From contig NZ_CP042163.1 in NCBI RefSeq assembly GCF_007725405.1, positions 3,782,001 through 3,846,000 of the forward strand: a stretch of DNA of 64,000 bases. Reading direction: 5' to 3'. The notes under the pieces are model-generated. The model was given only the letters and a program-made list of their open reading frames with translations, had not been told where the DNA came from and made no database searches. Position numbers and translations under genes: made by a program. Positions 48,772 through 52,728 of this stretch are shown here, piece after piece. Position 1 is the first letter of the stretch; each line of letters opens with the position of its first letter. Source of the stretch: Shouchella miscanthi (GTDB lineage: Bacteria; Bacillota; Bacilli; Bacillales; Bacillaceae_D).

Positions 48772-49437
48772 TTTTATGATTTTCAGAATGAGGTACAAGA
48801 GAACACCGACTACGACATAAATCCACCAGTCTACAGAGAGCTCAGGTCCGAAACTCGGAACAAATGTATAGAACAAAAACAGCGGGACAAACCAAAGCAT
48901 GCCATATAAGCCACCTTTTAGGATCATCCAAGTATCGCTTTTCTTCTGATCTGGTTTAAATAGAGACTGTCGAACGAAACCAAACACCATGCTAATTGCC
49001 AAAGGAATCGAAAACCCTACATAGATCGCAATGACAAGCGCGTTCCCTAGTGAAATCGTCTGGTTAAAGTCAAAAAAGAGTGGCAAGAGGCCATTTACTG
49101 CGCCTTGTATAATAAAAATAAAGGCAAGTGTACTGAAGAACGCATCAGCGACTACCGCTAGCTGGTGCTTCTTTTTTTCACGTGGTAAGTGAGCAATAAG
49201 TTCTTCTGCATAGGCTTTCGGATTCTCACCAAATAGATCATAAGCGGTCTTTCCTTCTTTCTCCGCTTCTAGTAAATGATCTAATATATCCATTAACAAT
49301 TCCTCTGCTTGCTGTTCAGCTATTCTTAAATCCGTTCGAAAATACAAAAGGAAATCTTCATAAACCTGTTGATTCCTTTCAGATAACGCTTCTCGCTTTT
49401 CGTTGTTCAGTTCAATTAATTCTTCTGTATACGTCAT
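48751..49437 (-). CDS. DUF1129/HAAS-type membrane protein paired with PadR
   Basis: A 228-residue protein. The N-terminal helical domain (about 1-95; LSERNQQVYEDFLLYFRTDL, LLMDILDHLLEAEKEGKTAY) is followed by four membrane helices (AFFSTLAFIFIIQGAVNGLL, ISLGNALVIAIYVGFSIPLA, and two more), as in DUF1129 proteins often coupled to PadR regulators. The start overlaps the padR stop (ATGA). The last codons, GWDKSR and the TAG stop, lie within the interspersed repeat, so its original C-terminus was probably replaced. Confidence 0.75.
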   Translation of the reverse strand: MTYTEELIELNNEKREALSERNQQVYEDFLLYFRTDLRIAEQQAEELLMDILDHLLEAEKEGKTAYDLFGENPKAYAEELIAHLPREKKKHQLAVVADAFFSTLAFIFIIQGAVNGLLPLFFDFNQTISLGNALVIAIYVGFSIPLAISMVFGFVRQSLFKPDQKKSDTWMILKGGLYGMLWFVPLFLFYTFVPSFGPELSVDWWIYVVVGVLLYLILKIIKGWDKSR

Positions 49438-49763
49438 GTTTCATCCTTCCTTCCAAGAAGCTCGTTCACAGGGGTAACAATCGTGTTCCATTGTTGAATA
49501 ATACTGTTCAATTCCTCTTCCCCCTCCTTCGTTAAGTAGTAATACTTTCTTTTTGGTCCTGATGGGGAATCCTTTAATTCACTAAAGATAAAGCCTTTCT
49601 TCTGTAGACGAAGGAGCACAGGGTAAATCGTCCCATCGCTTATTTCAGGTAGCCCTACTTCTTGTAACCTCACTGCTAATTCGTACCCATAAACCTCGTC
49701 TTCTTTAATAATCGTCATCACACACGCGTCTAAGATTCCTTTTAGAATTTGTGTTCTTGACAT
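49434..49763 (-). CDS. PadR-family transcriptional repressor
   Basis: A 109-residue winged-helix regulator. ILKGILDACVMTIIKEDEVY, YELAVRLQEVGLPEISDGTI, YPVLLRLQKKGFIFSELKDS and GPKRKYYYLTKEGEEELNSI cover the complete PadR domain with the aromatic YYYLT wing. It is coupled to the membrane protein downstream. Two similar palindromes lie directly upstream and are probably its own operators. PadR proteins commonly respond to envelope-active or phenolic compounds. Confidence 0.92.
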   Translation of the reverse strand: MSRTQILKGILDACVMTIIKEDEVYGYELAVRLQEVGLPEISDGTIYPVLLRLQKKGFIFSELKDSPSGPKRKYYYLTKEGEEELNSIIQQWNTIVTPVNELLGRKDET

Positions 49764-49777
49764 CTAGTCACCTACTA

Positions 49778-49837
49778 ACTATATGGTATTACCAAGTAGT
49801 AATGATTTTAGCAGCTACTCGGTATTACCAAGTAGCT
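49778..49837 (-). promoter_or_regulatory. Two PadR-type palindromic operators
   Basis: Site 1 (49778-49800) and site 2 (49813-49837) share the core GGTATTACCAAGTAG. Site 2 has perfect arms AGCTACT/AGTAGCT around CGGTATTACCA. Site 1 keeps TGGTA-T-TACCA and a weaker outer pair. They are 35 bases apart centre to centre, in the padR promoter region, consistent with autorepression. Confidence 0.7.
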
Positions 49838-50043
49838 GTCTTTATCTTATATGATCGGACCAACATTATCAAGAAGAAGTTTGGTTTTTTACCTTTTACG
49901 ATATAAGAAATGATTAAAGAGTTATCGTTCTTTTGTTTTTCACTCTCGTAAAACCGCAGTTACTCCTTCTATTTCCCTGTTTCACTTTACGCAAATGCTT
50001 GCTTAAACCGAGTAACTCTGCTATCTTCTAACTAAGTTGCAGT

Positions 50044-50161
50044 CTATCGAAAGAACTAGCTTATCTATAAAGAGATTGGTAGAATCGGACCTACGGGCAT
50101 CTGATTGTCCCAATGAGCGTAACCACCCTTCGATAGGGACATCGACTTTGGGTGTTTTTTT
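50044..50161 (+). ncRNA. Riboswitch-like attenuator or small RNA, unknown class
   Basis: An 8-bp helix CTATCGAA (50044-50051) with TTCGATAG (50129-50136) closes a 77-base region that holds smaller pairings (GTAG/CTAC near 50079-50094 and GGGCA/TGTCCC near 50095-50111). The 3' strand of that helix is also the 5' part of an intrinsic terminator: CACCC-TTCGAT (50124-50134) with ATCGA (50141-50145) and GGGTG (50150-50154), then T7. The two folds exclude each other, as in transcriptional riboswitches. The next gene is the LacI regulator at 50293, which also has a -10-like box of its own, so a free small RNA is possible. Confidence 0.5.
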
Positions 50162-50226
50162 CTGTCCTATTCCCCCTCTAAGAGACGATTTACTCAACCT
50201 TCTGTCTTCCATTCTTACATATGAAC

Positions 50227-50268
50227 AACTAACAAAATTTGATATAATACTAACATAACTAACAAAAT
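50227..50268 (+). promoter_or_regulatory. lacI-type gene promoter with direct repeats
   Basis: AACTAACAAAAT occurs at 50227-50238 and again at 50257-50268, flanking a TATAAT (50243-50248). Related CTAACAAA copies occur before the binding-protein gene at 51428-51448. They may be binding sites of the LacI protein (autoregulation) or shared leader sequence. Confidence 0.45.
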
Positions 50269-50292
50269 CAGACAGGTTCAGGCGGTGTAAAT

Positions 50293-51339
50293 ATGAGTCA
50301 AAGGAAAGTTACCATGCAGGTCATTGCCGATACTGTAGGTGTGTCTAAATACGTAGTGTCAAAAACATTAAATAATAAGCTTGGTGTAAGCGAGGCGACT
50401 AGACAGAAAATTTTATTCACCGCAAAACAACTCGGCTATTCTAAAGATGGTCCCTCAGAAGGTCCAAGCCTACCATTAGAGACAGAAATCGAAAATGGGT
50501 ATATTCTAGTTGTGCTGCCAAACTATGAATATCAAAGCATCTCTTACACATATTGGGGGACTGTATTCCAAGGCATATCCCTTCATATCCAAAGTAAAAA
50601 AGCCGGTATGATTGTCATTACAAGTGAAATGGATTTAACCAAAAAAGTAGATGTGGCAAATTTAATTGGCATCATCACAGTCGGAACGCTAGATGAGCAA
50701 ACCTTACTTGCGTTATCCACTTACAATCTACCTATTGTTACATTAGATCACGAAGCTAGGATTATTCGTACCGACAGCATCTTCATGGATAACCTCGGCG
50801 GTATTGAGCGGATGACCGATCATTTAATCGGTTTGGGACATAAGCAGTTACTGTTTATCGGTAATATCCATTATTCCCAAAGCTTCTACGAGCGTTGGAC
50901 CGGTTTTCGCAATTCGTTAGAGAAAGCAGATATAGCGATTGCACAAGGCAACCAAAAGGTTCTAACGATTCCTTACAACGATGATATGGAAGTCGCTCTC
51001 CAACAACACTTTGAAGAACTCGGAATTCATTCTACTCATTTCCCAACGGCTTTCGTTTGCGCAAACGATCACATTGCAAGACGTATGATTGTTCTATTAG
51101 AAAAGAACGGCTTGGCATGCCCGAAGAATGTTTCAGTCACTGGCTTTGACTCCCTTGAAGAAGACAAGCATCTCTCACCTACACTCACAACCGTTCAAGT
51201 ATTAAAACAAGTGATGGGCCGCCGAGCAGTCGACCGCCTTATCTGGCGTGCTAAAAATAGAGACTACCCACCTGAAAAGCTCTTAATAGTCGGAGATATC
51301 GCTTTTAACGAATCAATAGACACACCAAAAAAACGATGA
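50293..51339 (+). CDS. LacI-family regulator of the downstream glycoside locus
   Basis: A 348-residue repressor. The HTH and hinge are MQVIADTVGVSKYVVSKTLN and LGVSEATRQKILFTAKQLGY. The sugar-binding core includes YTYWGTVFQGISLHIQSKKA, FMDNLGGIERMTDHLIGLGH, FPTAFVCANDHIARRMIVLL and KNVSVTGFDSLEEDKHLSPT. The helix-turn-helix carries Tyr-Val-Val where Ser/Ala-Thr-Val-Ser is usual, so the operator may be atypical. It is the first gene of a plus-strand locus with an ABC importer and a large glycosidase, which it likely controls. Confidence 0.92.
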   Translation: MSQRKVTMQVIADTVGVSKYVVSKTLNNKLGVSEATRQKILFTAKQLGYSKDGPSEGPSLPLETEIENGYILVVLPNYEYQSISYTYWGTVFQGISLHIQSKKAGMIVITSEMDLTKKVDVANLIGIITVGTLDEQTLLALSTYNLPIVTLDHEARIIRTDSIFMDNLGGIERMTDHLIGLGHKQLLFIGNIHYSQSFYERWTGFRNSLEKADIAIAQGNQKVLTIPYNDDMEVALQQHFEELGIHSTHFPTAFVCANDHIARRMIVLLEKNGLACPKNVSVTGFDSLEEDKHLSPTLTTVQVLKQVMGRRAVDRLIWRAKNRDYPPEKLLIVGDIAFNESIDTPKKR

Positions 51340-51360
51340 GCCTTGTCTCATCGTTTTTTT
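51331..51360 (+). terminator. Rho-independent terminator after the lacI-type gene
   Basis: AAACGATGAG (51331-51340, overlapping the stop) pairs with CTCATCGTTT (51347-51356), followed by T4 more. Confidence 0.85.
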
Positions 51361-51371
51361 ACTATTTAAAA

Positions 51372-51408
51372 ATAAAGCGTTTACATATTGATTGCGAAGT
51401 GATATGTT
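51372..51408 (+). promoter_or_regulatory. Promoter and cre-like site of the ABC-glycosidase operon
   Basis: TTTACA (51380-51385), 17 bases, TATGTT (51403-51408). The -35 overlaps ATAAAGCGTTTACA (51372-51385), a cre with two mismatches at its first two positions. Confidence 0.55.
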
Positions 51409-51462
51409 TATCAACAATAACAAAATAAACTAACAAAGCTAACAAAATCAGGAGGGGTTTAT

Positions 51463-52728
51463 ATGGTTCGTTCTGTACTTAAATCTTTAGTGGCGATTGG
51501 AAGTATCGGTTTGGTGGCGGCTTGTTCTTCCGGCTCTAGTTCAAGTGAGTCCACTGGAGGAGGAGACATTACATTAACAATGTGGCTTTGGCCTGGGATG
51601 GGGTTTGCGGAAAAAGCTGCCCAATACGAAGAAGAAAACCCAGGAATCAACATTAATATTCAAGAGGCTGAATACGCTGATGCACACCAAAACCTGATTA
51701 CCGCACTTGCTGCTGGTTCTGGTGCTCCTGATATTTCTGGTGTAGATGAAGGGTACCTTGAGCGTATTAAAGAAAGCAGTCACTTGTTCTACGATCTATC
51801 CGATTATGGGGCTGCCGATTTAGAAGGCGACTATCTCGATTGGAAATGGAACCAAGCCTCTTCTGATGACGGTTCTGTTATCGGTATTCCTACCGATATC
51901 GGTCCAATGGCCATGGCCTATCGTGTGGATTTATTCGAAGAAGCAGGCTTACCTACAGATCCAGATGACGTTGCTGAAGCAATGGGTACATGGGACGATT
52001 ACATCGAAGCTGGTAAGCAGTTAAAAGAAGAGACAGGTAGCTTCATGTTTAGCGATGTAGCAGATATGTATTCTGCGATTCGTGAGCAAGGGGATAAACA
52101 ATATTTTGAAACAGACGGCACCTTAATCATTGAAGATAGCCCACAAATTTTAAAAGCGTGGGATAAGTCGATTGAAGCAATGGACATTCAAGCCAATATT
52201 GAACGTCAGACACCTGAATGGGGTGCAGCCATTGCAAATGGTGATTTTGCGACGGTTTTCCTTCCACCTTGGATGCTGCAAAATATTAAAAACGACGCGC
52301 CTGATACTGCTGGTTTATGGGACATCGCGTTAATGCCTGAAGGCTCAGGGAACTGGGGCGGCTCTTTCTTAACAATTCCGTCTCAAAGCGATCATCCAGA
52401 AGAAGCCTATGCGTTTATCACTTGGCTCATGTCGCCTGATAATCAATTAGATATTTTTGAAGCAAACGGGAACTTTCCTTCCACTCCTGGAATTTATGAT
52501 GAACCAGCTGTGAAAGAACTCGATGACGGCTTCTTTATTCGAGATGATATTGGCGCTATTTTTGCAGAGGCCGCCACCCTTGTTAAAGATGTGTATCGAG
52601 CTCCAGATACCGCTCCGATTAACACGATTATGCAAGATGCTCTTGGAACTGTAGCCGATGGTGTAGCAGAACCTGAAGCGGCATGGGACAGTGCCATTCA
52701 AGAAGTGAACCGTCAAACGTCGCGTTAG
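51463..52728 (+). CDS. ABC transporter substrate-binding lipoprotein (family 1)
   Basis: A 421-residue sugar-binding lipoprotein. The signal is VLKSLVAIGSIGLVAAC (lipobox VAAC), then a Ser/Gly linker and the fold motifs DITLTMWLWPGMGFAEKAAQ, ALAAGSGAPDISGVDEGYLE, IGIPTDIGPMAMAYRVDLFE and NWGGSFLTIPSQSDHPEEAY. AGGAGGGG lies before the ATG. First gene of an importer operon. The ligand is presumably the oligosaccharide or glycoside cut by the large glycosidase downstream. Confidence 0.92.
   Translation: MVRSVLKSLVAIGSIGLVAACSSGSSSSESTGGGDITLTMWLWPGMGFAEKAAQYEEENPGININIQEAEYADAHQNLITALAAGSGAPDISGVDEGYLERIKESSHLFYDLSDYGAADLEGDYLDWKWNQASSDDGSVIGIPTDIGPMAMAYRVDLFEEAGLPTDPDDVAEAMGTWDDYIEAGKQLKEETGSFMFSDVADMYSAIREQGDKQYFETDGTLIIEDSPQILKAWDKSIEAMDIQANIERQTPEWGAAIANGDFATVFLPPWMLQNIKNDAPDTAGLWDIALMPEGSGNWGGSFLTIPSQSDHPEEAYAFITWLMSPDNQLDIFEANGNFPSTPGIYDEPAVKELDDGFFIRDDIGAIFAEAATLVKDVYRAPDTAPINTIMQDALGTVADGVAEPEAAWDSAIQEVNRQTSR

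Follow-up and report, generated by a model that had tools for sequence, protein, structure and literature searches.

Small RNAs of the Bacillaceae such as RoxS and FsrA are encoded in intergenic regions, act in trans, and have their own sigma-A promoter and intrinsic terminator, whereas the pbuE adenine type is a transcriptional ON riboswitch, in which a P1 helix competes with a terminator. Within the window (the whole stretch of 64,000 nucleotides analysed here, from the 4.25 Mb genome of Shouchella miscanthi), the 529-base intergenic region between padR (49434-49763, minus strand, 109 aa) and a gene for a LacI-family regulator (50293-51339, plus strand, Pfam LacI and Peripla_BP_3) contains an element that invites comparison with both. 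It is like RoxS and FsrA in its size, its own promoter-like site, its terminator and a C-rich stretch, but it has no Rfam match, is found in two species only and has no known target. It is like the pbuE type in that the 3' strand of its P1 helix is also part of the 5' arm of the terminator, but it has no aptamer of a known class and no covariation; moreover, its downstream gene has a promoter-like site of its own, and lacI in relatives comes without the element. The most likely reading of the sequence, which we rate at a probability of roughly 0.55, is a lineage-restricted, free-standing, non-coding small RNA of about 127 nucleotides. An independent small RNA had been offered by the first-pass annotation as its alternative to a riboswitch, and it is the alternative that appears to fit best.

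The putative RNA would start near 50034, directed by a sigma-A type promoter-like site (TTGCTT-17-TATCTT, 49999-50004 and 50022-50027, plus strand, the -10 hexamer being preceded by TGC) that ends 16 bases 5' of the P1 helix. The hexamers, the spacing and the TGC are identical in three of three genomes (that of the window, G100 from another strain of the same species, and G003 from Shouchella oshimensis, of the same genus), with one change in the spacer of S. oshimensis. Since the pattern TTG-N17-TGNTATNNT has one match in the 64-kb window and 1.02 are expected by chance, it is weak on its own; the argument for this promoter-like site is its position and conservation rather than its rarity. 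In the other S. miscanthi strain, a 1.49-kb cassette replaces 49891-49956 of the window, yet 49957-51463 remains in place (at 99.4% across 1507 bases); thus, the element and its promoter-like site are independent of upstream content. The cassette (L091, 1307-2794) carries a 434-aa hydrolase-like frame, which we take to be of the acyl-CoA thioester hydrolase type, and the 66 bases that it replaces hold an 8-bp inverted pair (TTTTACGA/TCGTAAAA). Farther upstream, GGTATTACCAAGTAG occurs twice before padR, together with an inverted repeat of 13 nt (92%), at 49785-49838, a probable PadR operator.

From its start, the transcript (50034-50161, plus strand) would run to an intrinsic terminator and stop at about 50161, folding into a hairpin domain of which the ends are predicted to pair as helix P1. 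This 8-bp helix is present as first annotated, CTATCGAA (50044-50051) pairing with TTCGATAG (50129-50136) 77 bases away, as is the terminator (50124-50161), in which CACCC (50124-50128) and TCGAT (50130-50134) pair with GGGTG (50150-50154) and ATCGA (50141-50145), respectively, ahead of a run of seven T (50155-50161). The two structures do have TTCGAT in common, the 3' strand of P1 overlapping the 5' arm of the terminator. Predicted folds place an inner domain (50059-50118) within P1, consisting of GCTT/GAGC (50059-50062/50115-50118), ATTGG/CCAAT (50075-50079/50110-50114) and an AATCGGA/TCTGATT hairpin (50083-50089/50100-50106); compared with S. oshimensis, 15 of its 16 pairs are invariant and one has a one-sided change from C-G to U-G. 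The C-rich stretch AACCACCC would be free with P1 formed and otherwise inside the terminator stem, and base pairing in trans is a possible mode of action for the RNA. No target emerged when hybrids were predicted with the start regions of the 54 ORFs of 110 aa or more in the window (listed mechanically, so that padR, at 109 aa, was left out), the best z-score being -1.7, with -0.3 for lacI and -0.3 for the solute-binding protein gene downstream of it.

By itself, the 8-bp helix is not beyond chance: when the intergenic region was dinucleotide-shuffled 1000 times, 570 of the shuffles had one or more 8-bp inverted pairs with arms within 100 bases (mean 1.2). The intergenic region itself has five such pairs, a count reached by 42 of 1000 shuffles, and P1 is thus one of several. 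Its overlap with the terminator is also easier to obtain by chance, because the self-complementary TCGA sits in both helices. Nor is the predicted fold more stable than those of shuffled sequences, with z-scores of +0.27 (plus strand) and -0.24 (minus strand) for 50030-50175 and of -0.46 and -1.09 for 49870-50165.

As a feature not due to chance, the terminator is more credible than the helix. Its predicted stem has 10 pairs followed by the T run in the window (-10.6 kcal/mol), and all 20 stem bases are retained in S. oshimensis even though just 22 of the 30 columns of 50137-50165 agree. An independent small RNA calls for such a terminator, and the predicted stem is not only kept in S. oshimensis but lengthened, with nine outer pairs, and more stable (-18.1 kcal/mol); the T run there is shorter and interrupted (TTCTTTT). 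Hairpins of -9 kcal/mol or below before a T run are found at 33 plus-strand places in the window, the terminator at 50161 among them, whereas three copies shuffled in blocks have 10, 16 and 16; a simple terminator scanner that requires a stem without an internal loop does not list this hairpin.

Homologues of the element were found only in its own genome, the other S. miscanthi strain and S. oshimensis. BLAST searches gave matches in 4 of 100 relatives at E 0.01, the genome of the window included, of which those in G075 and G094, only 22 and about 31 bases long, were dropped on inspection as chance; at E of 1 or less, 6 of 13 genomes of the genus gave matches, the element being covered in the same three only and the short matches at L008-L013 being dropped on inspection. 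A covariance model, which is a weak one built from two distinct sequences and run with stricter filters, so that a fast-changing homologue could be missed, gave matches with E of 1 or less in 4 of 41 genomes of the family, including G005 (E 0.55), which is noise, as is a second place in S. oshimensis (E 0.58). The model matched 3 of 397 genomes of the order and 1 of 398 of the class (sets that overlap with each other and with that of the family), in scans that scored eight candidates per genome and could miss a diverged homologue. The DUF1129 gene is present in 11 of the 13 genomes of the genus; of the eight DUF1129/padR loci outside the three genomes with the element, six (L083-L088) were scanned with the model, and the best match (E 1.1) was taken as chance. 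An exact pattern of the 47-base core was found in one named contig record, that of S. oshimensis DSM 18940, and plasmids and phages gave no match at E 0.01. Judged by titles and the opening lines of abstracts, the literature covered does not describe the element.

Conservation of 50030-50136 between the window and S. oshimensis (103 of 107 columns, 96.3%) is not special, being within the range of its surroundings (96.9% for padR, 93.4% for the upstream spacer, 98.7% for the stretch with the lacI promoter-like site and 88.4% for lacI). Past P1, agreement falls to 57 of 81 columns in 50137-50215 (22 of 30 plus 35 of 51), and it is 76 of 77 in 50216-50292, just before lacI. In the terminator fold, 25 of 26 pairs never vary between the two distinct sequences and one changes on one side; in the P1 fold, 23 of 24 pairs never vary. 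No pair has changed on both sides in either structure, a count without power since there are only two distinct sequences, and neither fold is thus backed or refuted by covariation.

Of the reading frames across the element, none retains its start as well as its stop in S. oshimensis. A 73-aa frame from a TTG at 50037 loses its start there to a one-base deletion and, from a later TTG, diverges after about 20 codons, and a 25-aa minus-strand frame agrees with S. oshimensis in its stop and the 22 to 23 codons before it, but not in its start. This comparison is weak because frames stay open anyway in DNA that is almost the same and free of indels, here for about 20 shared codons per strand. Just 5' of the element and across the promoter-like site, a hydrophobic 32-codon TTG frame (49933-50031, plus strand) matches its S. 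oshimensis counterpart in start, stop and length, with 26 of 32 residues alike by eye; it was rejected as a small protein, its start being in the stretch that is missing from the other S. miscanthi strain and six of eight base differences, by eye, changing an amino acid.

The first-pass annotation could match the element to no recognised riboswitch class, and the Rfam search that it called for bears this out, with no match at the gathering score; the best match at E 10 was CRISPR-DR54 (16.8 bits versus a gathering score of 39; E 2.4 and 1.4), followed by mir-883 and L20_leader (E 7-8). Across the whole window, a single Rfam match exceeds its threshold, an epsC RNA (RF01735, 5762-5869, minus strand, 97.9 bits). 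A minus-strand element such as a relic of a T-box leader was considered because a 14-base minus-strand stretch of the element (50117-50130, AAGGGTGGTTACGC) has 12 of 14 letters of AAGGGTGGTACCGC, which comes from the T-box leaders of this genome; 4 of the 24 places in the genome within two mismatches of the pattern read AAGGGTGGTACCGC, inside T-box matches. However, the T-box model (RF00230), with 17 matches in the genome at E of 0.001 or less, has none at the element, and the strand is wrong relative to the terminator, as the T run faces the plus strand. The pattern and its reversed control, moreover, had 24 and 25 places in this genome (element included), 26 and 20 in the other S. miscanthi strain, and 24 and 24 in S. 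oshimensis; the count in its own genome being within that of the control, the relic was rejected as highly improbable.

The first-pass annotation had suggested that a riboswitch could be tied to the glycoside locus that begins with lacI, in which downstream of the regulator gene come a gene for a solute-binding protein, two permease-like frames and a frame of 1030 aa resembling glycoside hydrolases. This connection is unsupported. About 80 bases 3' of the terminator, lacI has a promoter-like site of its own (50229-50267, plus strand), resembling an extended -10 (TGATATAAT, 50240-50248) among repeats (CTAACAAAA, 50229-50237 and 50259-50267; CTAACATAA, 50250-50258), and TGNTATAAT with tandem repeats likewise precedes lacI at six loci of relatives (L017-L021 and L023). 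In the 1.5 kb upstream of lacI at ten loci from ten genomes (L017-L026, of which four share only 40-49% identity and are perhaps not orthologous), BLAST found no match to the element, and the covariance model, with filters off, gave no convincing match at eight of them (L017-L024; best E 1.9). With their own promoter-like site and no element, the lacI genes of relatives indicate that lacI commonly runs without it, and no association of the element with a controlled gene extends across species at these ten further loci. Tandem direct 9-mers of the form CTAACAWAR are found at 50229-50267 before lacI, at 51430-51447 before the solute-binding protein gene and also 5' of lacI in relatives; head-to-tail rather than palindromic, they are perhaps a LacI operator. 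The tandem has two exact matches in the genome and, with up to one mismatch, three, as does the reversed control. A similar 9-mer at the start of the element (CTAACTAAG, 50028-50036) was dismissed as a further repeat unit, six such 9-mers being present versus 3.67 expected.

A leader of the attenuated or riboswitch type, in which RNA started at the upstream promoter-like site would stop at 50161 or, with P1 held as an antiterminator by a ligand or protein, read on into lacI, is to be weighed against this promoter-like site beyond the terminator and against the lacI genes of relatives that have no such leader, as well as against the lack of an Rfam match and of covariation and a helix within chance. 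On its side are the TTCGAT common to P1 and the terminator and the stretch from the terminator to lacI, in which no plus-strand frame of at least 60 aa starts. The mutually exclusive folds of the first-pass annotation hold to the extent that the predicted folds compete and are nearly equal in the window (optima for 50033-50165 of -29.1 kcal/mol with P1 forced and -28.4 kcal/mol with the terminator forced), but S. oshimensis, the only diverged homologue, favours the terminator by 4.5 kcal/mol (-35.5 versus -31.0 kcal/mol for P1). In folds of the growing chain, P1 is the first to form, with a pair probability of 0.98-0.99 in the window (lengths 115-121) and of 0.99 in S. oshimensis (lengths 111-117), and it then gives way to the terminator, partly in the window (terminator 0.24-0.44) and wholly in S. 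oshimensis, as a leader would have it; we infer, nevertheless, that P1 forming and then being displaced is expected anyway of any terminator whose 5' arm can pair upstream. Such a leader is unlikely, and it is quite improbable that the competition makes a young two-species RNA gene into an ON switch that senses a ligand or protein and adds a second conditional promoter to a self-controlling lacI.

Better placed than the leader, though still doubtful, is an ordinary terminator with a chance helix, which would end stray plus-strand transcription before lacI, the rest being neutral spacer whose similarity reflects how closely related the species are. The helix, the fold energy and the promoter pattern are all within chance, as this reading would have them, and the adjoining spacer is nearly as conserved as the element. 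Against it stands the presence of a promoter-like site, a hairpin domain and a terminator in fitting order and at fitting distance. In the first 125 alignment columns, moreover, eight of nine differences avoid the paired columns, of which there are 52, and the other one preserves pairing, although this tendency is weak (hypergeometric 0.052). From the sequence, then, the most likely ranking puts the small RNA first, the ordinary terminator with a chance helix next and the attenuated leader third.

The main value of these results is negative, in that a single helix overlapping a terminator is insufficient for calling a riboswitch. Were the element transcribed, two Shouchella species would have an undescribed small RNA beside a carbohydrate-uptake locus, and such an RNA, though not surprising, would be useful for annotation and for the study of how small RNAs originate.
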